Shown here one piece after another: positions 499 through 17,321 of a stretch of DNA of 20,658 nucleotides. Within the stretch, counting starts at the first letter, position 1. Each line of letters begins with the position of its first letter. The translations under genes and the position numbers were made by a program. The stretch lies in IMG/VR virus record IMGVR_UViG_3300046472_000270, positions 1 to 20,658 of that record. One strand, given 5' to 3'. The notes beneath the pieces are model-generated. The model searched no databases and had not been told where the DNA came from. It was given only the letters and a program-made list of their open reading frames with translations. The DNA is from a virus.

Positions 499-524
499 TA
501 GAAACACAAGGCTTAGTGTTTCTA
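499..524 (+). promoter_or_regulatory. Perfect 9-bp hairpin just before the portal start
   Basis: TAGAAACAC (499-507) pairs perfectly with GTGTTTCTA (516-524) over the loop AAGGCTTA. The stem begins 19 bases before the preferred GTG start at 543 and buries the alternative GTG at 516. It may set the accessible start of the portal message or mark a processing site. Confidence 0.5.
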
Positions 525-529
525 GATAC

Positions 530-533
530 AAGG
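530..533 (+). promoter_or_regulatory. Ribosome binding site deciding the portal start
   Basis: AAGG (within ACAAGGAT) lies nine bases before GTG 543. The upstream GTG at 516 has AAGG only four bases away and sits inside a hairpin stem, so 543 is preferred. Confidence 0.55.
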
Positions 534-542
534 ATCGTTTGG

Positions 543-3023
543 GTGGCTGTTTCCCCATTTAATACATTTGAACCTCAAATGCCCGGGATGCAACCGGAAG
601 GGCAAGGTTTACCCTTTGATTTACCACCTTTCAATCCAGAAGAAGCTCAAGCAGAAGCGCCTCCTGAACAACCAGAAGATTTCCACGCCAATCTAGCGGA
701 GGCCATGGATAGCGGTACGCTATCAGGTCTTGCCGCAAGACTCTTAGAGAATATAGAGAATGATGATAACGCCAGATCTGACTGGCTAAAAACGATTAAC
801 CTAGCCATGAAATATCTTGGCTGGAAAGTAGATGAATATAAAAGTATCCCGTTCTCTTATGCCTGCTCAGCTTACGATACCTCTCTCTCTATAGCCCTTA
901 TCAGCTCCTACTCCACTGTCTATGCAGAACTCTTTCCCGCTGCGGGTCCTACTCGCTCTGAGATTATTGGAATGCCAACTCAGGAAGTAGAAGACCAGGG
1001 GGATAGAGTCAAAATGTTCATGAATAACTTTTTGACGAACATTAACCGAGATTACTATCCAGACTCTAAAGGATTAGTGCTTTATACCATCTTTTGTGGG
1101 AGTGGATTTAGAAAGGTGTATCAAGACCCTATTCTGAACCAACCTGAAGCCAAGTTCATTAAGCCCCAAGATTTTATCGTTAATCCTAATACGACAAGCC
1201 TCATGTCTGCCGATAGGATGGCTCATAAAGTCTATTACTCCCGTAAGGATGTCATTCTTCGTCAGATGAACGGAGATTTCTTAGAAGATACGTTGCCTGC
1301 CATCATTGAAGAAAATCAGATGGATAAGAAGACGCTGACTAAGACTATTCAACATATTGATGGGGTTAATCCAGAATCCACTGAGAACAAGAACTTATTC
1401 ACGTTCTATGAAGTCCATGCGGATTTAACGGATAAGGATATTAGTTCGGGTCGAATGAGCGGGACGGATGAAGGGGATGAATTACCGAAACCTTATATTT
1501 TAATGATTTGCGAATCAACCAAGAACATTGTCTCTATAAGAAGAAATTGGAAAGAAGGAGACGCTATATATAAGCGCAAGGAATATTTTGTCGCTTATAT
1601 GTATTTACCCGGTTTTGGCATTTATGGAACAGGATTGGCCCATTTAATGGGGTCGAATGCCATAGTCTTAAGCAATGTCTTAAGGCAACTTATGGACGCA
1701 GGGACGCTCAAGAATTTCCCAGGGGGACTGCAGGTCGCTGGGTTGAAGATTGAGACGAACGATATTGCGATAGGCCCCAGTGAATTTAGGGAGATAGAGA
1801 CTGGTGGATTGCCTATTCAGCAATGCGTAATGCTCATGCCGTATGCGGAGCCATCCACGGTATTGATGCAGCTTAGAACGGACTTAATGCAGCAAAGTGC
1901 CAAAAATGGAATGGCCGCTGACAATCAAATCCCTGAAAGCAATATGAATGCCCCAGTTGGGACAACGTTAGCGTTATTGGAAGTCGCTAATCGTGCCCAA
2001 TCGACGGTGTTGCGGTCTTTCAGGAATTCATTAAGTCATGAACTCAAGCTCTTGTTTGATTTGTTTGGAGAGCATCTCGAAGACAGGCCTTATCTCTTTG
2101 CAGTTCCAGGGAAGGAGACTGCGATTATGAGGAAGGATTTCAATAATAGGATAAGTATTGTACCTGTTTCAGATCCAAACGTCTTAACAAGCACACATCG
2201 CTTATTGCGCGCAGAAGGTATCTATAAGATAGCCGGAGCCGCTCCTCAGTTGTATAACCAACGTGAGGTTAATAAGCTGATGTTACATGCGATGAACGTT
2301 GACAATATTGATAAGTTATTAAAGCCGGAACCACAACCGGCCATGCTGGATGCGATAACGGAGAATATGTACGTTCTGCAAGGAAAACCTGTATTGGTCA
2401 ATGTGCAACAAGATGACGATGCTCATATTCAATTGCACACTGCGTTTGCCCTGGAGATGAAGCAAGCGAATCCAGTAGCTTATGCGGCTATTATGGAGCA
2501 TAACCAAGTCCATAAAGCCGCAAAAGTTGCAAAAATGTTAATTCAAAACCAAGTAAAACAACAAGTTCAACAACAAATGCAACAAAACCCCATGATGCAT
2601 CCCATGTTCGCAGAACAGATGTCGAAACAGATTCACGATCAGGCCATGCAAAAGTTCTCTCAAATGCCAGTCCAGCAATTACTGATGGATATGCAAATAC
2701 AAAATATGGTTGCCAAGATGGACGCTGAGGAATTAGCGAAACAGCAACAACAACAGCAACAAATGATGAAACAACAACAGGAAGTTCAGCAGGTACCGAA
2801 CAAGATAATGATGGAAGACATTAAACAAAGACAAGAAGCGGCTCATCTTAAGAATGATGAGACGAAGTTAAAGGTTGAAGAAGATGCTTTCAAAGCGCAA
2901 TTGCATTTTGAGAGTGAGAAAGCGAAATTGGAAGCGCAAAAAGACATGGCTACTGACAAACATTTAGTTGATTTAGCCATAGCAGAAATGAAACAGCATC
3001 CTAATCCTACAGCGAGGTATTAA
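543..3023 (+). CDS. Portal protein (head-tail connector, P22-like)
   Basis: Predicted to form the dodecameric ring at one capsid vertex through which DNA is packaged and ejected. It is 826 residues from GTG 543, longer than P22 gp1 (about 725). The best recognition motif is PVGTTLALLEVANRAQS near residue 471, matching the PVGTTxALxE signature of large podovirus portals, followed by a helical stretch with FDLFGEHL. From about residue 660 there is a long Gln/Met-rich, highly charged coiled-coil tail with a seven-Gln run, the likely equivalent of the P22 portal barrel. The N-terminal 50 residues are Pro/Glu/Gln-rich and likely disordered. The next gene starts 2 bases after the stop. An open reading frame extends to GTG 516, but the ribosome site and hairpin favour 543. 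The family call is firm; the P22-type subclass is inference from size, tail and gene order. Confidence 0.87.
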   Translation: MAVSPFNTFEPQMPGMQPEGQGLPFDLPPFNPEEAQAEAPPEQPEDFHANLAEAMDSGTLSGLAARLLENIENDDNARSDWLKTINLAMKYLGWKVDEYKSIPFSYACSAYDTSLSIALISSYSTVYAELFPAAGPTRSEIIGMPTQEVEDQGDRVKMFMNNFLTNINRDYYPDSKGLVLYTIFCGSGFRKVYQDPILNQPEAKFIKPQDFIVNPNTTSLMSADRMAHKVYYSRKDVILRQMNGDFLEDTLPAIIEENQMDKKTLTKTIQHIDGVNPESTENKNLFTFYEVHADLTDKDISSGRMSGTDEGDELPKPYILMICESTKNIVSIRRNWKEGDAIYKRKEYFVAYMYLPGFGIYGTGLAHLMGSNAIVLSNVLRQLMDAGTLKNFPGGLQVAGLKIETNDIAIGPSEFREIETGGLPIQQCVMLMPYAEPSTVLMQLRTDLMQQSAKNGMAADNQIPESNMNAPVGTTLALLEVANRAQSTVLRSFRNSLSHELKLLFDLFGEHLEDRPYLFAVPGKETAIMRKDFNNRISIVPVSDPNVLTSTHRLLRAEGIYKIAGAAPQLYNQREVNKLMLHAMNVDNIDKLLKPEPQPAMLDAITENMYVLQGKPVLVNVQQDDDAHIQLHTAFALEMKQANPVAYAAIMEHNQVHKAAKVAKMLIQNQVKQQVQQQMQQNPMMHPMFAEQMSKQIHDQAMQKFSQMPVQQLLMDMQIQNMVAKMDAEELAKQQQQQQQMMKQQQEVQQVPNKIMMEDIKQRQEAAHLKNDETKLKVEEDAFKAQLHFESEKAKLEAQKDMATDKHLVDLAIAEMKQHPNPTARY

Positions 3024-3025
3024 TC

Positions 3026-4222
3026 ATGAGTGAATGGAGAGCAGGCTATCACGGAGACGATTCCATGAGAGCAAAAGCAGAAAGAATGTTCCGAGAAGAA
3101 AGTCCTGAAAGAGGCAGAGAAGTGCCTGGAAGTTATATGGCAAAAAGTCGAGAAAAAACTCGATTCTATGCCAAAGGTGGACATGTTCACTCTATGGAGA
3201 AATCACAACATGACATGAAAATTCCACGACGTGGAAAAACACCAAAGCTTAGCGTTCAGAACTTTGAAGAAGCAGAACGTATGAGACATGGTGGACGAGC
3301 TCGTCATAGAGCCGAAGGTGGTCAAATGGCCGAAGGTGGAGCGATGGCGGACGGCGGAGCAATGTCAGCAATGAAGAGGGGCGGTAAGTCTAAGAAACAT
3401 CATTATGCAGATGGTGGAGCTGTACCTACTCTTTTACCGCAAATGCAAGATGCAATGATGCAGGCTGCAATGAATAGCAGATCTGACATGAAGCGAGGCG
3501 GAAAAGCTCGTCATCACTATGCAGAGGGTGGAAAAGTCCGAGATGAAGTTGATGGAATAGAAGTCGAAGTGAAACCAATGAGAAAAGGGGGTCATATGCA
3601 TAAGAAATCTCATCGTAAAGCCGAAGGCGGAAAAATGATGGAAGGTGGCAGGATGGCAGAGGGTGGAAAGATGGCTGAAGGCGGATCTTATCGTAGAGGC
3701 GGTCATTCTCATAAAAAGCATCATAAAGCGGGTGGTGGAATGGTTGATGCTATTCAAGCGGATGCAGCCAGACGGCAGGCTGATGCCGCTAGCGGTATCC
3801 CTCAAATCGGTGTTTACAATCCTCAGATGCCCCGTATGAAACGAGGCGGAAGAACACGTCATAGAGCCGAAGGCGGACAGATGGCGGACGGCGGAGCAAT
3901 GTCAGCAATGAAGAAAGGCGGTCGTTCTCACAAGTATGCAGCCGGTGGAGCTGTTCGAAATCATTATGGAAGATACGAAGCGGACATGATGGGTGAACAT
4001 CATGGAGCGTCTAATCATTATCGAGATTACGTAGCAGACATGATGGGCGAACATGGTTGTCATGAGCCTGTCTCTCACCCACACATTGGGCGTTCTAAAG
4101 GAACTCCTTTTGCAGAAGGTGGTTATGCGATGGGTGGAGTCGGTAAATATCGTCATGGAGAAGCTACCAAGTCTGGTAAACAGATTGGACATGCTAAAGC
4201 TAAAGGGTCTCCTTTTGCATAA
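3026..4222 (+). CDS. Gly/His/Lys/Arg-rich AEGG-RGG repeat protein, function unknown
   Basis: I do not recognise a fold. The 398-residue product is low complexity and strongly basic. It alternates basic (K/R/H)GG blocks with acidic (A/M)(E/D)GG blocks: about eight of the first and twelve of the second, for example KRGGKARHHYAEGG and MAEGGKMAEGG, separated by His/Lys/Met-rich linkers. The C-terminal quarter has two 18-residue tandem units (NHYxxYxADMMGEH) and the phrase KG(T/S)PFA twice, once at the extreme end. Residues 1-70 are less repetitive and charged. GAGG at 3014-3017 is well placed. It lies in the portal operon, overlapping the next gene by TAATG. The composition suggests nucleic-acid or metal binding, or a flexible packaged virion component; this is inference. 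The AEGG phrase recurs in the small gene at 11333. Confidence 0.8.
   Translation: MSEWRAGYHGDDSMRAKAERMFREESPERGREVPGSYMAKSREKTRFYAKGGHVHSMEKSQHDMKIPRRGKTPKLSVQNFEEAERMRHGGRARHRAEGGQMAEGGAMADGGAMSAMKRGGKSKKHHYADGGAVPTLLPQMQDAMMQAAMNSRSDMKRGGKARHHYAEGGKVRDEVDGIEVEVKPMRKGGHMHKKSHRKAEGGKMMEGGRMAEGGKMAEGGSYRRGGHSHKKHHKAGGGMVDAIQADAARRQADAASGIPQIGVYNPQMPRMKRGGRTRHRAEGGQMADGGAMSAMKKGGRSHKYAAGGAVRNHYGRYEADMMGEHHGASNHYRDYVADMMGEHGCHEPVSHPHIGRSKGTPFAEGGYAMGGVGKYRHGEATKSGKQIGHAKAKGSPFA
3343..3913 (+). repeat. 34-bp exact direct repeat inside the AEGG gene
   Basis: Bases 3343-3376 recur identically at 3880-3913, 537 bases apart and in the same reading frame (encoding MADGGAMSAMK). Flanking similarity extends upstream (a shared 17-base CGTCATAGAGCCGAAGG at about 3302 and 3858). 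Identity at synonymous positions points to a recent duplication or recombination within the gene. Confidence 0.8.
3959..4066 (+). repeat. 54-bp tandem repeat (two 18-residue units)
   Basis: Units 3959-4012 and 4013-4066 encode NHYGRYEADMMGEHHGAS and NHYRDYVADMMGEHGCHE. Both DNA and protein are clearly related, but several substitutions separate the copies. Confidence 0.75.
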
Positions 4223-4458
4223 TGTCGATGTTTAGTTATGCAGAGCAACTTCTTGAACGTCTGAGGGGTAGAGAAAAAGTGTATGAAGATACGCTTTTGA
4301 ATACTGCCTTTCAGACGTTAGAAGAGCAGAAGATGGTCAAGGGCAGGAGAGATGGAATACAGGATGCAATCAAGATAGTTCTTCAATTAAACAAGGACTT
4401 TTTTGATTCAAAGACATTGAAATCGGAACTAAAGGAGAAGGAATATGAAGTTTACTGA
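4222..4458 (+). CDS. Small helical protein, function unknown
   Basis: The product has 78 residues, all predicted helical from heptad-like spacing, with an acidic-basic mix (LLERLRGREKVYEDTLL, then a Lys/Glu-rich end). No Cys, no membrane segment, no recognised motif. The start overlaps the previous stop (TAATG), indicating translational coupling. The 3' end overlaps the next gene by 14 bases and carries that gene's ribosome binding site. Its position between the AEGG-repeat gene and the GroES-like gene suggests a role in head assembly, but nothing in the sequence fixes it. Confidence 0.7.
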   Translation: MSMFSYAEQLLERLRGREKVYEDTLLNTAFQTLEEQKMVKGRRDGIQDAIKIVLQLNKDFFDSKTLKSELKEKEYEVY

Positions 4459-5050
4459 TAAAAGAGGACAAGGGCAAAAGAATTTTGTTATTCCAACAAA
4501 GAAATTAACGCCGGAACAAATCGCTCTAGATAATAAAAGAATGATGGAAGAACATCTGGAGTTTGTTAGGCAAGAAGAGTTGCGCCTTAGTGGAATGGAG
4601 GCGGCTAATGCAAAAAGTGTTGATAGTTTTAGATTAAGTTTTATTGAACCTTATGAAGAATCCGAAGCAATTCGTCAAATAGAAGAACTATTAGGATTTG
4701 AACGACCGCGTCCAACAGGCTATCACATTGCAGTTAAGATTTATGTCAGAGATGAGGATTGTGGAAAATTGTTTGATAAGGATGGAAAAGAGACTTTGAT
4801 TTATGCGCCTCCTAAAGTATCCGCACATGACAAGTTTAGAAACTGTAGCGCATTGGTTCTTTCATTAGGAGACGATGCTTATAGAGATAGAAAGTTTTTA
4901 AGTGGTCCTTGGGTACGAGTGGGTGATTGGGTCGTCATCGCAAGAAATGGTGGACCTCAAGTGAATTATAGAGGCGTCCCGGTTACCTTTATTCCAGATG
5001 ACAATATTTATTGTGTGATTTCAGATCCGACACATGTAACACGCGACTAA
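4445..5050 (+). CDS. GroES-like (Cpn10) co-chaperonin domain protein
   Basis: 201 residues. Residues 1-90 form a charged, mostly helical extension. Residues 91-195 read like the Cpn10 barrel: a first strand GYHIAVKIYV (compare DRVIVK in GroES), a variable loop YAPPKVSAHDKFRN where the GroEL-binding mobile loop belongs, SALVLSLGDDAYRD (compare GEVLAVGNG), then VRVGDWVVIARNGG (compare VKVGDIVIF), and a last strand NIYCVISDP. Family members cap GroEL-type chaperonins, and T4 gp31 is a phage example needed for capsid folding. Here it lies just before the scaffold and capsid genes, which suits that job. The canonical GGIVL mobile-loop sequence is absent, so GroEL binding is inferred. A strong AAGGAG site is at 4432-4437. 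No chaperonin subunit gene is in the window. Confidence 0.68.
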   Translation: MKFTDKRGQGQKNFVIPTKKLTPEQIALDNKRMMEEHLEFVRQEELRLSGMEAANAKSVDSFRLSFIEPYEESEAIRQIEELLGFERPRPTGYHIAVKIYVRDEDCGKLFDKDGKETLIYAPPKVSAHDKFRNCSALVLSLGDDAYRDRKFLSGPWVRVGDWVVIARNGGPQVNYRGVPVTFIPDDNIYCVISDPTHVTRD

Positions 5051-5069
5051 TGGATTTTTATAACATTAC

Positions 5070-5074
5070 GGAGG
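5070..5074 (+). promoter_or_regulatory. Ribosome binding site deciding the scaffold start
   Basis: GGAGG at 5070-5074 touches the in-frame ATG at 5075 and is therefore too close to serve it. It lies six bases before ATG 5081, which is taken as the start. Confidence 0.7.
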
Positions 5075-5080
5075 ATGGAT

Positions 5081-6106
5081 ATGGCAGTAGAATATAGCAG
5101 AGAAATTAAGACTGAGAACGTTGATTCGCCAACAGTTGACAATCAATTTACGGAAGAAGATGTTCGGTCTATGAAAGGGGAAGAATCGGAACCTGATTAT
5201 CAGGAACCCCAGGCAGAAGTCTACGAAGAGCCTGAGACAGAAAGTCAAGGACAGGAACAAGAAGAGACGCAAGAAGTCGTAGAGGAGAAGAGGAGATATC
5301 GAGATCCGGCAAAGAACCGTATCAACCAAATCCAGCGTCAGCGATATGCGGCATTGGACGAGGCCAATCGTCTTCGGGAAGAGAACGAAAGGTTAAGACG
5401 TCTAGCAACTATTTCTACAGAAACCGCTTCCAAACAATTTGAAGATAATGTTCTTCAAAGATTGGAGCGAGCTAAAAATCTTAAGATGCAAGCTTATGAG
5501 GCCGGAGATATTAAGGCTCAAACAGATGCTGATTTAGAAATGGCTGATGCGATGGCTGATTATAAATCTCATAATACTTGGAAGGCACAAGAGTCTTTAA
5601 AATCGCAAGAAAACTCTTATAACTCACAAGTTCCCATTAAACAAGGTCCCATTGTTAATGAACGAGAAGCGAGGGGTTGGATTGAGAGAAATTCATGGGC
5701 CAATCCTAATACTTCAGAGTTTGATAGAGATTTATTTCAAATAGCAGATAATGCCGCCTCTCAGCTTGATTTGTATTGTTATAAGAATGGACAAGCACAT
5801 CTGATTCAATCTCCTCAATATTTTCAGGAGTTGGATAATTATATGGAACAGGCAAGGCAGCATATGGAATCACAACGACAATCTCATGGAAGGGGGCAAA
5901 TACCGATGAAACAACCAATGCGGGGTGGAGTAACACCCGTTAGAGCCAGTAACAATGCGCTAGGCTCTTCCAAACAAAAAATGCAGTTAACTCAAGAGCA
6001 GAGAGATTTAGCTAAGTCTTTAGGCGTGACTGAAGATGTTTATAGACAAGAGGTATTAAGGGACATGAAAGATAGGCCAGAGAGATATAACAGAGGAGGT
6101 AGATAA
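5081..6106 (+). CDS. Probable capsid scaffolding protein
   Basis: 341 residues from ATG 5081. The N-terminal 80 residues are very acidic and likely disordered (many Glu/Gln). A basic helix follows (KRRYRDPAKNRINQIQRQR), then a long coiled coil (about residues 85-150, with ENERLRRL and LERAKNLKMQ). A less charged middle contains WIERNSWANPN. The C-terminal part is Gln/Arg-rich and ends in a compact basic helical segment (LTQEQRDLAKSLGV, then RPERYNRGGR). Acidic helical body plus a small basic C-terminal coat-binding segment is the classic pattern of podovirus scaffolds such as P22 gp8, and the gene lies between portal and capsid genes as in that group. Such proteins guide procapsid assembly and then leave. 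No sequence motif proves it. Confidence 0.68.
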   Translation: MAVEYSREIKTENVDSPTVDNQFTEEDVRSMKGEESEPDYQEPQAEVYEEPETESQGQEQEETQEVVEEKRRYRDPAKNRINQIQRQRYAALDEANRLREENERLRRLATISTETASKQFEDNVLQRLERAKNLKMQAYEAGDIKAQTDADLEMADAMADYKSHNTWKAQESLKSQENSYNSQVPIKQGPIVNEREARGWIERNSWANPNTSEFDRDLFQIADNAASQLDLYCYKNGQAHLIQSPQYFQELDNYMEQARQHMESQRQSHGRGQIPMKQPMRGGVTPVRASNNALGSSKQKMQLTQEQRDLAKSLGVTEDVYRQEVLRDMKDRPERYNRGGR

Positions 6107-6107
6107 C

Positions 6108-6638
6108 ATGGAAGTACCTGAAAGAACCGATCGCAAAAGTCGTTCCGATGATATGAGACGAGCAAGTGAGCGAGAAGCACAGTTGAGAAAAGGATATCAA
6201 ATGCATGGAAGAGATCCATTTTATATCCCCAAAGAGAAAATCCCAGAAGGATGGGAATATGTATGGGGTCGTATGAGTTATGATGGCGGTCGCCCCGATA
6301 TGGCCCGCGAACTAGAACTCAATCGAACCGGATGGACACCCGTCCCCCCAGAACGACATCCCGACTTGGTCCCAAAAGACTATACTGGCAGAATAAATCA
6401 GTCAGTTAGTTGTATCCAGATTAATGGTCTTCTCTTATTAGAGAGGCCTGAGATTTTTGGAATTGAAGATAGGGCTCGTCGAGAGGCGATGAATGACAAC
6501 CTGGTAGGTTCTATTAAGGGGTTGAAGAACTTCTTAGGAGAAGAGAATGTTCCAGGCTTACGCATTAATAGTAAGGTGGACTTTACTCAAGAACGGGGAG
6601 TCATAGGACGACGAGTGTTAGGTCCCAATAGCTTTTAA
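6108..6638 (+). CDS. Hypothetical phage protein
   Basis: 176 residues with AGGAGG (6094-6099) eight bases upstream, starting one base after the scaffold stop. The N-terminal 30 residues are highly charged (RTDRKSRSDDMRRASERE). A central segment follows with DPFYIPKEKIPEGWEYVWGR and GWTPVPPERHPDLVP, then a C-terminal region ending in RRVLGPNSF. The Trp/Tyr/Pro-rich centre looks like a small folded domain. I recall similar IPKxKIPEG..Y.W proteins beside phage capsid genes without known function. As last gene of block 1, directly followed by a terminator, it is probably a head-assembly factor, but this rests on context only. Confidence 0.65.
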   Translation: MEVPERTDRKSRSDDMRRASEREAQLRKGYQMHGRDPFYIPKEKIPEGWEYVWGRMSYDGGRPDMARELELNRTGWTPVPPERHPDLVPKDYTGRINQSVSCIQINGLLLLERPEIFGIEDRARREAMNDNLVGSIKGLKNFLGEENVPGLRINSKVDFTQERGVIGRRVLGPNSF

Positions 6639-6867: not shown

Positions 6868-7545
6868 ATGAGCAATGGTACGGGTTATAACGCTCCACGC
6901 GGGCTGATTCCTAGACAATATTTAAACGGTTCTCTCTACACAGGTCAAACTTCTCCTTACAACATAATTTCTGGCTTAGCGGCCAATATAGCCACTGGCG
7001 ATCCTGTTTATTGGGATAACGCGACTGGCGGTATTACATTAGCAACCGCTGGGTCTACCCATCGAATACTTGGTTCATTTCAGGGTGTTAGATATACCGA
7101 CACATCTGGAACGGTTCAGTTCCTTCCTAATTGGGCTTCCGGAACTGCAACATTAGGTTCAATACCTGCTCAAGCTTTTATAACTGACGATCCATTTATT
7201 CTATACGACATACAAGTCGCATCAGGCGCAGGTGGAACAGTTGCTGCACCGTCTATTTTGATCGGAAACCTCGGATTAAACATGAATCTGAACGTAGCCC
7301 AAGGAACAGCTTATAACGCTGTTGCTGGTGTTGTTCCTGCTTCAAATCCTGCGGCTGGAACTCCATTGAATGGTCAATCCGTTTGGTATTTGGATTCCAA
7401 CGTAGCACCTGCTGCGGACGCAACCTATCAAGTGACGCTCATTCGATTTACCCCAGTTTCTGGAAACATTTCAGGGCTAGTTTTTAATAACGTTCTATGT
7501 CTTATCAACATACATGCGTTTAGGGCTGGCGTAGCTGGGTTTTAA
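6868..7545 (+). CDS. Capsid decoration-type structural protein
   Basis: 225 residues, Gly/Ala/Thr/Asn-rich and predicted mostly beta. It starts with an aromatic-basic N-terminus (APRGLIPRQYLNGSLYTGQ) followed by GDPVYWD. This N-terminal style (GLxPxRxLNGxxYxG) is familiar from conserved structural proteins encoded just before the major capsid gene in many podo- and siphoviruses, thought to be head decoration or minor capsid components. GAGG lies seven bases upstream. There is only one Cys (in VLCLIN) and no membrane segment. Placement directly before the capsid gene and a leader shared in style with it suggest similarly high expression. Assignment by pattern recall and context; a portal-vertex protein is an alternative. 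Confidence 0.62.
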   Translation: MSNGTGYNAPRGLIPRQYLNGSLYTGQTSPYNIISGLAANIATGDPVYWDNATGGITLATAGSTHRILGSFQGVRYTDTSGTVQFLPNWASGTATLGSIPAQAFITDDPFILYDIQVASGAGGTVAAPSILIGNLGLNMNLNVAQGTAYNAVAGVVPASNPAAGTPLNGQSVWYLDSNVAPAADATYQVTLIRFTPVSGNISGLVFNNVLCLINIHAFRAGVAGF

Positions 7546-7592: not shown

Positions 7593-8495
7593 ATGGCAAT
7601 TAACACAACTCAGATAGCGTCACTTTTGCGACCTGGTCTGTCTGCGGTGTTCGGTGATTATCCATTCTACCCAAGTCAATGGTCGGAACTGTTTGAAGTT
7701 TACGAATCTGACAAGGCAGTAGAATACGAAACCGAAATGAGAATGCTGGGATTAGCTAGTATTCGACCCGAAGGTTCGCCTACTGAGTCCGACATTATGG
7801 GACAACGCGTAATCTCGACGTACATCAATCGTTACGTCGCATTGCAGTTCCAAATAACTCGTGCTGCTGTAATGGATAACCTGTACAAGACGAAATTCCC
7901 ATTGATGGTAAAAGCTTTGAAGAAATCGATGGCACAAACGAAAGAAGTTTTGGGTGCTGCCATTTTCAACAATGCCTTTAGTTCTTCATTCCCTGGGGGA
8001 GATGGTGTTTCTCTCTGTAATACAGGTCACCCAATTGATACGGGTGTTTATGCAAATAAACCATCCGTTGATGTGGACTTTAATGAAGCTTCACTTGAAA
8101 GTGCATTGATTACCACTCAACAGTTCAAAGATCAAGCGGGTCTCATTGTGATGACGAAAGCGCAGAAGTTGCTTGTGTCACCACAAGGTCAATTTGTTGC
8201 GGAGCGCGTTTTGGGTTCTGCGTTCAGAACGAACACTCCCAATAATGACGTGTCAGCTGTCTACAATGGTTCGTATCTTCCAAAAGGCTGGGTTTGTAAT
8301 CAGTACCTAACAGCAAACAATGCTTGGTTCTTGGTCACTGATGCAGTTGACGGACTAAAACATTTTGTTCGGGAAAAGATTGAGACTGACGTATATACCG
8401 ATTTCCAAACTGATAATCTTTTGGCCAAGGCAGTCGAACGCTATTCCTTCGGGTGGTCAAATCCACGTGCGGTTTACGGAAGTAATGGTCCTTAA
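7593..8495 (+). CDS. Major capsid protein, HK97 fold
   Basis: 300 residues, forming the icosahedral head shell. The central run EVLGAAIFNNAFS (119-130), then GGDGVSLCNTGHPIDTG (135-151), is the characteristic FNNAF...DG..L..T.HP signature of one large branch of HK97-fold coat proteins (the Mu gpT-like type and relatives). An N-terminal region with RPGLSAVFGDYP and QWSELFEV resembles the start of those proteins. The C-terminus (KAVERYSFGWSNPRAVYG) matches the usual ending with an aromatic-rich strand. AGGAG is seven bases upstream of ATG. Length is typical for members without an N-terminal scaffold domain, which agrees with a separate scaffold gene at 5081. There are only two Cys residues, and no protease gene is seen nearby. 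Confidence 0.9.
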   Translation: MAINTTQIASLLRPGLSAVFGDYPFYPSQWSELFEVYESDKAVEYETEMRMLGLASIRPEGSPTESDIMGQRVISTYINRYVALQFQITRAAVMDNLYKTKFPLMVKALKKSMAQTKEVLGAAIFNNAFSSSFPGGDGVSLCNTGHPIDTGVYANKPSVDVDFNEASLESALITTQQFKDQAGLIVMTKAQKLLVSPQGQFVAERVLGSAFRTNTPNNDVSAVYNGSYLPKGWVCNQYLTANNAWFLVTDAVDGLKHFVREKIETDVYTDFQTDNLLAKAVERYSFGWSNPRAVYGSNGP

Positions 8496-11332: not shown

Positions 11333-11575
11333 ATGACAAGCCGAGCTAAGAAAGAATACATGAAGGAATGTATGGCTGAAGGCGGAATGGCAGAGGGCGG
11401 AAAATGGATCCAAGGAGCCATTAAACATCCCGGAGCCCTTCATCGTAAACTACATGTTCCTAAAGGTGAAAAGATTCCTGCTAAGAAACTTGCAAAAGCC
11501 ACGCATTCTAAGAATAAAACCTTACGTAAAGAAGCGATATTGGCTCGCACATTAAAACGTCTACATCATGGATAG
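11333..11575 (+). CDS. Small basic AEGG-motif protein
   Basis: 80 residues, very basic (Lys/Arg/His-rich). The N-terminus holds MAEGGMAEGGKWIQGAIKHP, with two AEGG units as in the large repeat protein at 3026. A compact segment follows, GALHRKLHVPKGEKIPAKKL, then a helical Lys/Arg-rich end (LARTLKRLHHG). I recall KWIQxAIKxPGAL...GxKIPxxKL proteins as common small uncharacterised proteins in tailed phages; role unproven. AAGGAG (11319-11324) lies eight bases upstream. It could bind DNA inside the head or cap another virion protein. The shared AEGG phrase suggests a partner or localisation relation with the 3026 product. Confidence 0.7.
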   Translation: MTSRAKKEYMKECMAEGGMAEGGKWIQGAIKHPGALHRKLHVPKGEKIPAKKLAKATHSKNKTLRKEAILARTLKRLHHG

Positions 11576-13422: not shown

Positions 13423-15360
13423 ATGGCAATTAATTTAATTTCTGGCGGAGTAGTTCCAACAGCCTTCCTTATCGGAGACTATGGTCAAGCGCCTGGTGGC
13501 TCTCCTGATTCAGTAGCCACCATAACGCAAGCAGGCGGAAAAGCCGTCTCTGCTGGATTAGAAATCCAATCAGTTCTTGGTGGATTGTTATTGCCTCGCA
13601 TGACAACGACCCAACGTAATGCCTTAAATGCAACGAATGGGTTGATGGTTTACAACACAACCAGCGATACCTTCGATGTCTATCAAGCAGCCGCTTGGAC
13701 TCAAATTACTAATACATTTGATACCGCTCAGTTCATATTAGGTACTGCAAATGCGACATTCCCTAGCGCTCAAAGTTTAGGCGCTCTTACAACAGGGCTT
13801 TTAAAGAATACCGTATCCGTAAGCGTCGGTACATTAAGCAAAGCCGTTGCCGGAACGGATTATTATTCGCCCGGTAATCCCACAACAATCATTGATACAG
13901 GAAGCACCCCAACAACTGACAACCTCTTTGTTGGTACATCTTGCGGTAATATTTCTGCTACTGGAATTCAAAACACGGCCCTTGGTGTCAACTGCTTAAC
14001 CGGAATCACTTCTGGAAATAATAACGTATGCATTGGATATCAAGCCGGAATTTCTATTCTTGGGGTCAGCAATAATGTTTTAATCGGAACGCAAGCGGGG
14101 AAAAATGTTGTTAGTCCTGCAAACGTATTAATTGGTTATCAATCTGGGGAATTAATAGCTAACATCGGTGGTGGAAACGTAGGCGTTGGATATCAATCAT
14201 TGGTATTAGCAACGAGCGCTCTGGATACAGTCGCTATAGGAGGAAGCGCTGGCGCCCTTCAAACAACCTATACTAATTGCACATTTATCGGGGTTGGCAC
14301 TGATGCTTCTGTGAACAATCTTACAAATGCGTCAGCCATTGGGGCTTTTGCGTCTGTCGCCATCAGTAACGCAATGGTGTTGGGGAATAATGTCAATGTG
14401 GGAATAGGAACCTCTTCGCCTTCAGAATTTTTACACGTTTCTGGTGGTAATATTAGAATCGACAGCGCCAACTCCTTAAAGCTTTTTAATGCTGCGAGTA
14501 CTTTTTTCTCTGCCCTTAAGAGCGCTAATGTTGGTTCAAACATTACCTGGACATTACCATTAACAGATTCTGCGAATTATCTGAAATCAGATGGTGCGGG
14601 AACACTTTCTTTTGGAGCCATAACAACCTTAAGCACAGTAAGTGGCGTTGCTCCCTTCTCTGGTGTGATAGCAAACTATGCATCAACCTATACTACTGGA
14701 ACAGCTAGCCAATCAACGACCACCATTACGGGATCTGGCACGACATTTACAGTCGCAATGGTAGGAGGCGTCATTGTATTTGCTAATGGCACTTATGGGT
14801 TCATTACTGCCTTCGGAACTACGACATCGCTTACGGTCGACAGTTCCCAAACTGAAGCGGGTCAGGCCTATACGATTTATTACAACGGTCTTATCTCTGA
14901 CAATCTAGGAAATGCGGGTGCTAACAACTTGTACTTCAACGGAAATGGTATTGCCTCTTATGTTCCAGCACCGCTCAACTACTATGAGACAGCCGTATTA
15001 AGTGGTAACTGGACAGGGCCTGTCACTGTTGCTGGCAATGTGTATCTTACGAGAGTTGGAAACGTTGTCACTGCGAGAATTCAGAAGGTAAGCGGAACGA
15101 GCGGCAGCACTACCATGTGGACGTTTGGTGTTCTCGTTCCGGCAAGATTTTTGCCCACAACAAATGCGAATGGAGATTTATTCTTTCCCTATGTGGCTTC
15201 TTTGAATGCCGTTATATCAATATCGGTCATACGTCTTTACACTCAAACCGCAACGATTGGAACGTTGATCGCAAGTTATGGGTCTAATGATCTTGGTAAT
15301 TTTACTAGCGGCCAAGCATCGGTTATTGAAGAATCTGCGATTTCATGGGTGGTTCAATAA
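13423..15360 (+). CDS. Tail fibre A (paralogue of the next gene)
   Basis: 645 residues. Residues 1-95: anchor module (QAPGGSPDSVAT, LEIQSVLGGLLLPRMTTTQRNAL, NGLMVYNTTSDTFDVYQ). 100-165: fibre linker ending VAGTDYYSPGNP. About 168-325: repeated IGYQ(A/S)G, IGTQAG and AIGGSAGALQ turns and a final AIGAFASVAISNAMVLG, resembling YadA-head or Hep/Hag-like left-handed beta rolls. 326-350: VGIGTSSPSEFLHVSGG, a stalk motif often found in phage fibres. Then SNITWTLPLTDS, a module with GSGTTFTVAMVGG, the conserved YYNGLISDNLGN segment, and a distinct C-terminal tip. AGGA is seven bases upstream. Likely a trimeric host-binding fibre. There is no S74 peptidase-type chaperone end. Confidence 0.75.
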   Translation: MAINLISGGVVPTAFLIGDYGQAPGGSPDSVATITQAGGKAVSAGLEIQSVLGGLLLPRMTTTQRNALNATNGLMVYNTTSDTFDVYQAAAWTQITNTFDTAQFILGTANATFPSAQSLGALTTGLLKNTVSVSVGTLSKAVAGTDYYSPGNPTTIIDTGSTPTTDNLFVGTSCGNISATGIQNTALGVNCLTGITSGNNNVCIGYQAGISILGVSNNVLIGTQAGKNVVSPANVLIGYQSGELIANIGGGNVGVGYQSLVLATSALDTVAIGGSAGALQTTYTNCTFIGVGTDASVNNLTNASAIGAFASVAISNAMVLGNNVNVGIGTSSPSEFLHVSGGNIRIDSANSLKLFNAASTFFSALKSANVGSNITWTLPLTDSANYLKSDGAGTLSFGAITTLSTVSGVAPFSGVIANYASTYTTGTASQSTTTITGSGTTFTVAMVGGVIVFANGTYGFITAFGTTTSLTVDSSQTEAGQAYTIYYNGLISDNLGNAGANNLYFNGNGIASYVPAPLNYYETAVLSGNWTGPVTVAGNVYLTRVGNVVTARIQKVSGTSGSTTMWTFGVLVPARFLPTTNANGDLFFPYVASLNAVISISVIRLYTQTATIGTLIASYGSNDLGNFTSGQASVIEESAISWVVQ

Positions 15361-17321
15361 TGGCTATTAATTTAGTTTCATACGGAATAGAAAATACTGC
15401 GTTCTTAGTTGTTGACGCTGGTCAAGCACCGCGTGGTTCTCCAGATAGTCTTCCAACCCTAACGATTGTAGGCGGAAAACCTGTATCAGCCGCTTTAGAG
15501 ATTCAATCAACGTTAGGCGGGCTATTGATTCCCAGAATGACAACGACTCAAAGAAATGCATTGAATGTCGTTAATGGGTTCATGATTTACAATAAATCAA
15601 CCGATACATTTGATATCTATCAAGCGGGTTCTTGGAGTTCTATTAGTGATGCAGCGCTTGATACTTCTGCTCAGTTCATATTAGCAACCGCGAATGTCTT
15701 ATTTACGAATGCTCAAAGTATTGGAGCGTTGACGACTGGTCTTCTTAAAAATACGGTATCTTTATCTACCGGGACCTTATCGACCGCTGTCGCTGGAACG
15801 GACTATTATTCTCCTGGTAATCCGACTACGATTCTCGACGATCATACTAGGCATAACTTATTCGTTGGAACGTCATGCGGTAATAGCTCGGAGTCTGGGA
15901 ATCAGTGCGTTGGGCTTGGAATCAATACTTTAACCGGATTAACATCTGCTGTTTCAAACGTTGGCATTGGCTATCAGGCTGGTGTTTTTATACATGCCGC
16001 TAGTAATAATGTTTTGCTTGGTACTCAGACGGGAAATCAGAATGTAACATCCACATCTGCAGATCATGTATTTATTGGATATCAAAGCGGAAAGCTCGCT
16101 GGTAGTTCTGCGCTTTTCAGCGTCGGCATAGGATATCAAACTTTTGTATCATCTACATTTCCAAATAGTTGTGTTGCGATAGGATGGAGCGCTGGCGCCC
16201 TCCAAACAAATTATCAACTCTGTACATTTGCCGGGACTGACGCAGATGCTTCAGCTTCTTCATTGACCCATACAACTGCTATCGGAAATGGCGCATCTGT
16301 TGCCATTAGTACTGCGTTAGTGTTAGGCAATGGCTCTATTAACGTAGGGATAGGTACGAGTTCGCCCGCGGAATATCTACACGTTTCTGGTGGTAATATC
16401 CTCATAGATCCAGCGGGCAATAACGGCATCGGTCTGAAATTATATAATGCTGGGAATACCAATTACTCTCAACTAATAAGCGCCGCTGTTGCATCCAATA
16501 TTACCTGGACATTACCCATAGCAGATGCAGCGTTTGCATTACATTCTGATGGATCTGGAACACTTAATTTCCAAACCCCAACATTAGGAACCATTACAGG
16601 ACTTGCCGCATTCTCTGGCGAGATAGCAAATTATGGTTCTAATTATGCCGCTGGGAACGCAAGTCAATCTACAACGACTGTTACCGGCTCAGGTACGACA
16701 TTCACAACAGCAATGGTAGGAGGTTTAATAGTATTCTCAAACGGCTCCTATGGATTCATAACAGCCTTTGGAAGCACAACCTCATTAACCGTCGATACTT
16801 CTCAGACCGTTACCTTGCAATCCTATATCATTTATTACAATGGATTGATATCAGATAACCTTGGGAACGCGGGCGCTAATAATCTTTACTTCTCAGGTAA
16901 TGGTATAGCGTCTTATGTTCCAGCACCATTGAATTATTATGAGACAGTTACTTTAACAGCGAGTTGGACCGGCCCTCGTACAGTAACAAATCAGACTATT
17001 TATTTAACTCGTATTGGTAATGTTGTGACAATGCGTATTTCGGTAGTCGATAATATCGCCGCCAATGCGACTGCTCCCTGGGTTTTTGGTTCTGTTATAC
17101 CCGCAAGATTTATACCAGCCAATCCGATTGGGGATTTGTATATGGTATATAACTCTGTTTCTACCGGCTTCAATAGATTAAGCATTATGACGATAAATTT
17201 TGTTACAGGTCCTGTCGGAACGATTACCGCTTATACGGGGAATACGGGCCTTGCTAGTTTTCAGAGTGGCGATAACCCTATCAAGATAGATGAATATGGA
17301 ATTTCATGGACGTTAGGATAA
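15360..17321 (+). CDS. Tail fibre B (paralogue of the previous gene)
   Basis: 654 residues from ATG 15360, which overlaps the previous stop (TAATG). An upstream in-frame ATG (15345) lies inside the preceding gene and would add MGGSI before MAINL; alignment with fibre A, which begins MAINL, favours 15360. The same domain order follows: anchor module with LEIQSTLGGLLIPRMTTTQRNAL, linker VAGTDYYSPGNP, beta-roll turns (IGYQAG, LGTQTG, IGYQSG, AIGWSAGALQ, AIGNGASVAISTALVLG), VGIGTSSPAEYLHVSGG, SNITWTLPIADA, GSGTTFTTAMVGG and YYNGLISDNLGN. The C-terminal 110 residues differ most (WTGPRTVTNQTIYLTRIGN...GISWTLG). With fibre A it could form a mixed or alternative receptor-binding set. Tip divergence versus core conservation fits change of receptor specificity. 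Confidence 0.75.
   Translation: MAINLVSYGIENTAFLVVDAGQAPRGSPDSLPTLTIVGGKPVSAALEIQSTLGGLLIPRMTTTQRNALNVVNGFMIYNKSTDTFDIYQAGSWSSISDAALDTSAQFILATANVLFTNAQSIGALTTGLLKNTVSLSTGTLSTAVAGTDYYSPGNPTTILDDHTRHNLFVGTSCGNSSESGNQCVGLGINTLTGLTSAVSNVGIGYQAGVFIHAASNNVLLGTQTGNQNVTSTSADHVFIGYQSGKLAGSSALFSVGIGYQTFVSSTFPNSCVAIGWSAGALQTNYQLCTFAGTDADASASSLTHTTAIGNGASVAISTALVLGNGSINVGIGTSSPAEYLHVSGGNILIDPAGNNGIGLKLYNAGNTNYSQLISAAVASNITWTLPIADAAFALHSDGSGTLNFQTPTLGTITGLAAFSGEIANYGSNYAAGNASQSTTTVTGSGTTFTTAMVGGLIVFSNGSYGFITAFGSTTSLTVDTSQTVTLQSYIIYYNGLISDNLGNAGANNLYFSGNGIASYVPAPLNYYETVTLTASWTGPRTVTNQTIYLTRIGNVVTMRISVVDNIAANATAPWVFGSVIPARFIPANPIGDLYMVYNSVSTGFNRLSIMTINFVTGPVGTITAYTGNTGLASFQSGDNPIKIDEYGISWTLG

Follow-up and report, generated by a model that had tools for sequence, protein, structure and literature searches.

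A divergent GroES-like co-chaperonin gene in a phage head module, with a predicted Cpn10 barrel and a remodelled mobile loop

The stretch of viral DNA analysed here, referred to as the window, comprises positions 1 to 20,658 of IMG/VR record IMGVR_UViG_3300046472_000270. It carries a head module with the conserved order portal, small ORFs, Cpn10, scaffold-like gene, two small genes and major capsid protein (MCP) (Table 1). A preliminary description had placed the Cpn10 gene between the portal and scaffold genes. The slot is correct, except that two ORFs (3026-4222 and 4222-4458) separate the gene from the portal. The first of these encodes a basic protein that shares AEGG/MAEGG-type repeats and K/H/R-rich stretches with a second basic protein encoded at 11333-11575; a similar protein occurs on G004. 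Elsewhere in the window, the adjacent long ORFs at 13423-15360 and 15345-17321 resemble paralogues with very similar N-terminal regions, and are probably duplicated tail-fibre or appendage genes.

The AAAGGAG motif about 8 bases 5' of the ATG of the 201-aa ORF is a strong Shine-Dalgarno sequence. The closest relative, L169, encodes a co-chaperonin that is 71-72% identical, and its start codon lies within three codons of that in the window. Comparison of these two genes gives pN and pS values of 0.22 and 0.54 for the N-terminal 60 residues, 0.19 and 0.84 for the Cpn10 barrel, and 0.15 and 0.80 for the mobile loop, which is thus under purifying selection; synonymous sites are near saturation, so that only the direction of these differences is meaningful. 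Because pN is well below pS in every part, the whole co-chaperonin appears to be maintained, its N-terminal extension included.

Table 1. Features of the head module and of the co-chaperonin gene in the window
Feature	Position	Strand	Basis
Portal protein	516..3023	+	phrog_1216, E=8.6e-16
Small 78-aa ORF overlapping the co-chaperonin start; relatives have small ORFs here too	4222..4458	+	
Shine-Dalgarno-like AAAGGAG before ATG	4431..4437	+	Sequence
Cpn10/GroES-family phage co-chaperonin gene, 201 aa	4445..5050	+	Open frame, profiles, structure model
N-terminal extension (residues 1-86), modelled with helices at 23-57 and 69-83	4445..4702	+	AF2 model, alignment, pN<pS vs L169
Cpn10 barrel, about residues 87-194	4703..5026	+	AF2 model, Foldseek, VIA-align
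Mobile-loop equivalent, residues about 102-133, with insertion before hydrophobic edge	4748..4843	+	Alignments, AF2 model
LIYAP, residues 118-122, at the position of the GroES I-V-L GroEL-binding edge	4796..4810	+	Alignment
Scaffold-like gene, by position and composition	5075..6106	+	phrog_28737, unknown function
Conserved head-module gene, HTVC027P gp57-like	6108..6638	+	
Cement/decoration-like protein	6868..7545	+	Profile matches, synteny
Major capsid protein (MCP), 300 aa, Mu gpT-like	7593..8495	+	phrog_371

Several lines of evidence identify the encoded protein. It matches the PHROG_3188 profile 'co-chaperonin GroES' with E=4.7e-7, and the same profile picks up GroES in 11 of 14 control genomes. 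When searched as a single sequence, it scores 14.3 bits against Pfam Cpn10, below the cut-off of 21.1; its canonical relatives pass. A profile built from 86 relatives finds 14 matches in the PDB at E<=0.01, all of which are Cpn10 chains (E from 1.2e-11 to 0.003). An AlphaFold2 (AF2) model made with the alignment of these relatives has a mean pLDDT of 84, and its top 33 Foldseek matches in the PDB are all Cpn10. VIA-align superimposes this model on Mycobacterium tuberculosis Cpn10 (1p3h_A) with Z 9.2 over 96 residues, and on T4 gp31 in its GroEL complex (2cgt) with Z 7.9 and an rmsd of 1.8 over 71 residues. The best BFVD matches are viral 'co-chaperonin GroES' entries. The resemblance to Cpn10 is not due to chance.

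GroES-like barrels of another superfamily, the MDR dehydrogenase domains, do appear in the structural ranking, at Z 5.7 and below. Every Cpn10 chain listed outranks them, and the sequence profile recovers Cpn10 alone from the PDB. The MDR assignment was rejected on this ranking, and the chance that the barrel belongs to another superfamily is negligible. The preliminary description had read the order of Cpn10 strands at residues 91-195 and had proposed a profile search and a structure model as checks, a non-Cpn10 fold being the outcome that would speak against it. Both return Cpn10, and the model has a confident barrel at about residues 86-194. Taken with synteny, the profile and the predicted structure place the protein in a phage co-chaperonin family with a Cpn10 barrel.

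This family has been described before. HTVC023P-type pelagiphages have GroES among their core genes (PMC9599517), and the gene has also been published in CRP-901/902 (PMC10149686). The PHROG_3188 relatives found in head modules include Pelagibacter phages HTVC023P and HTVC027P, Roseobacter phages CRP-901/902, DSL-LC04 and 023Pt_psg01. These phages share with the window the slot between portal and scaffold/MCP genes, the barrel, the MCP family and the lack of Cpn60. Their proteins are 134-155 aa long and carry a canonical K-T-[KA]-G-G-[ILV] loop, whereas that of the window has 201 aa, a longer loop without Gly-Gly and about 45 extra N-terminal residues. The window protein is a divergent member of this published family. 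Bacterial GroES/Hsp10 proteins have the same barrel and strand order. They are 16-26% identical to the window protein in structural alignments, and differ from it in that the latter has an N-terminal extension and a remodelled loop and is encoded without GroEL.

The genomic setting recurs widely. GroES occupies the slot upstream of a scaffold-like gene and MCP in 023Pt_psg01, DSL-LC04, HTVC027P, Pag-Yong1 and CRP-902, and again in HTVC023P, QDWS535, Caulobacter RW and several spring-water genomes. In these cultured or complete phages, two small genes usually precede the MCP gene, and the portal gene, where annotated, precedes GroES. A Cpn10 match is present at 188 loci, gathered by one portal-based and two GroES-based searches. 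Those with enough flanking sequence have a downstream scaffold-like gene (161/163), a gp57-like gene (147/147), a cement-like gene (121/121), an MCP gene (79/79) and an upstream portal gene (92/95), although these counts are not independent, because many loci are near-identical and most were fetched through Cpn10 homology. Since nearly all syntenic relatives checked share it, the arrangement in the window is not exceptional.

One related phage contig, L178, carries tandem Cpn10 genes (4617-5069 and 5070-5609). One copy has a long loop, and the other a short one (VLIMA) together with an N-terminus that differs; a search with the second copy recovers no match besides itself. The two copies are not sisters in the tree, which suggests an old duplication or acquisition, and they perhaps form a mixed ring. 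In several Campylobacter phage records, GroES-like genes are labelled 'putative capsid and scaffold protein', for example, MT863727.1 6030-6209. This label is probably a mis-annotation, because comparable genes of other Campylobacter phages carry the name co-chaperonin GroES.

A test that starts from the capsid protein is less biased than synteny counts that start from Cpn10. Of the complete named records tested, 14 carry this MCP lineage, and every one of them also encodes Cpn10; part of these records were first found through GroES, and nine were reached by MCP searches. Cpn10 was not found in MT836833, a 10.8-kb fragment that is the one negative named record, or in three further partial virus records. 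In vir526 and MW202601, the gene is kept outside the head-module slot, and both proteins are distant from that of the window. The former (host Methanomicrobiales) was considered as a natural experiment, since an apparent slot lacking Cpn10 would have supported GroEL dependence. However, its full record has groS elsewhere, and this argument was dropped. A Cpn10 gene displaced from the head-module slot lies beyond the terminase at 42826-43182 of BK063670.1 (L258), a virus assigned to Methanomicrobiales (archaea).

No Cpn60 was found in the window or in a 54,134-base contig with the same sequence, and a search of 32 records, of which the IMG/VR virus records may be incomplete, likewise returned none. 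The earlier statement that the gene has no GroEL partner thus extends from the window to longer contigs and complete relatives. A search of genome contigs yielded four metagenome-bin contigs, the best of them in an alphaproteobacterial bin, and these are too weak to support a claim about the host.

The part of the protein that would contact GroEL departs from the canonical pattern. Relatives outside the window's clade mostly carry K-T-K-G-G-[ILV]-x-[hydrophobic] or a close variant, like cellular GroES. The window's clade consists of 11 members without Gly-Gly (FastTree local support 0.93), most of which have about 8-17 residues inserted ahead of the edge. Pro122 is invariant in the eight closest members and is preceded by hydrophobic residues; the edge variants are IYLP, IALP, IVVP and LYLP, with IYAP in the window and LYAP in L169. 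Judged from these alignments, the GroEL-binding edge appears remodelled rather than missing. The AF2 model contains a short hairpin within the loop, with strands at 107-110 and 116-119 and lower confidence (block pLDDT about 68-74), so the longer loop of this clade may form a beta-hairpin.

The loop had previously been called non-canonical, and this holds in that Gly-Gly is absent and the loop is longer. Its position was misjudged. The hydrophobic edge L118-I119-Y120-A121-P122 is retained, and the segment YAPPKVSAHDK, taken to be the loop, starts inside it. A disordered loop had been expected at about residues 118-132; the loop extends over about residues 102-133 and includes the modelled hairpin. 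Given the missing Gly-Gly and the lower model confidence, GroEL binding is not to be assumed.

A functional precedent is T4 gp31, which binds GroEL and folds the T4 capsid protein (PMC6318259). Like the window protein, gp31 has a Cpn10 fold and is encoded by a phage without its own GroEL; its client is the capsid protein. The gp31 loop has 22 residues compared to 16 in GroES, and roof loops are absent in gp31 (PMC6318259). Its linker is acidic and longer, with S-G-L-I-I in place of Gly-Gly, and the window protein likewise has a lengthened linker and lacks Gly-Gly. Counted from the sequences, about 16 residues precede the edge in gp31 and about 20 in the window protein, compared to about 12 in GroES and canonical phage relatives. 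The lengthened linkers are presumably a convergent adaptation. There are also differences. The roof segment between SLG and VGD has about 15 residues in the window protein, as in GroES, but about 8 in gp31, so the window protein does not share the missing roof loops of gp31. In addition, gp31 lacks the long N-terminal helix predicted for the window protein, and T4 gene 31 resides outside the capsid operon, whereas the window gene is inside the head module.

The helical N-terminal extension noted in the preliminary description is borne out by the AF2 model, which predicts helices at residues 23-57 and 69-83. A motif, SFIExxEExEA..IExxLGF, is conserved within it across the clade. A shorter N-terminal segment is widespread among these co-chaperonins. 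Only the window protein, L169 and, with a different sequence, a relative on G004 have the first 45-60 residues. PHROG matches within the first 90 residues (E 0.0045 and 0.024) involve short stretches of helix and were not regarded as evidence of homology.

These departures from GroES could mean that the Cpn10 fold now serves a structural or assembly role in this clade, for example, as a ring that binds portal or scaffold, and that GroEL binding has been lost. Loss of Gly-Gly, the loop insertion in most of the clade, the added N-terminal helices (predicted) and the location in the head module are in keeping with such a change. It is nevertheless improbable, because the hydrophobic edge and the invariant proline persist in all eight closest members, the loop is under purifying selection, and Cpn10 is also retained outside the head module in vir526 and MW202601, though in distant proteins. 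Moreover, gp31 is a proven GroEL partner that similarly lacks Gly-Gly and has a lengthened linker before its SGLII sequence.

We consider it probable, with a good degree of confidence, that the window protein acts as a gp31-like lid for host GroEL in folding capsid proteins. Use of host GroEL is proposed by analogy with T4 gp31, and we infer all three of heptamer formation, GroEL binding and the MCP as client. In this mechanism, seven copies of the co-chaperonin would assemble into a lid that uses the mobile loop to cap the GroEL of the infected cell. Proteins of the capsid module, most likely the 300-aa MCP, would then fold in the chamber ahead of assembly, and the helical N-terminus may contribute an element that lies on the outside or faces the cargo. 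A normal GroEL/GroES chamber would have room for the 33-kDa MCP, which leaves the need for a special lid unexplained. An auxiliary role in raising host protein folding as a whole during infection, instead of one directed at capsids, is conceivable since gp31 can replace GroES for host clients as well (PMC6318259). The gene's tight linkage to capsid genes and its presence in all complete named genomes of the capsid lineage make this very unlikely.

A more elaborate version of the lid proposal is speculative and should be regarded as doubtful. In this phage branch, the flexible Gly-Gly loop might have given way to a longer hairpin that is partly pre-formed, and N-terminal helices might have been gained that recruit capsid-module clients or keep them at the GroEL cavity. 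The resulting lid would be tailored to a single host GroEL or a single client.

This analysis adds a divergent clade, marked by its remodelled loop and helical N-terminal extension, and the consistent co-occurrence of the co-chaperonin with one capsid lineage. The lineage spans many hosts, and all of its complete named genomes tested encode a GroES lid, which suggests that this capsid has an obligatory folding dependence. The Gly-Gly loop, the extended loop and gp31 form a natural series for the adaptation of phage lids to GroEL and client.
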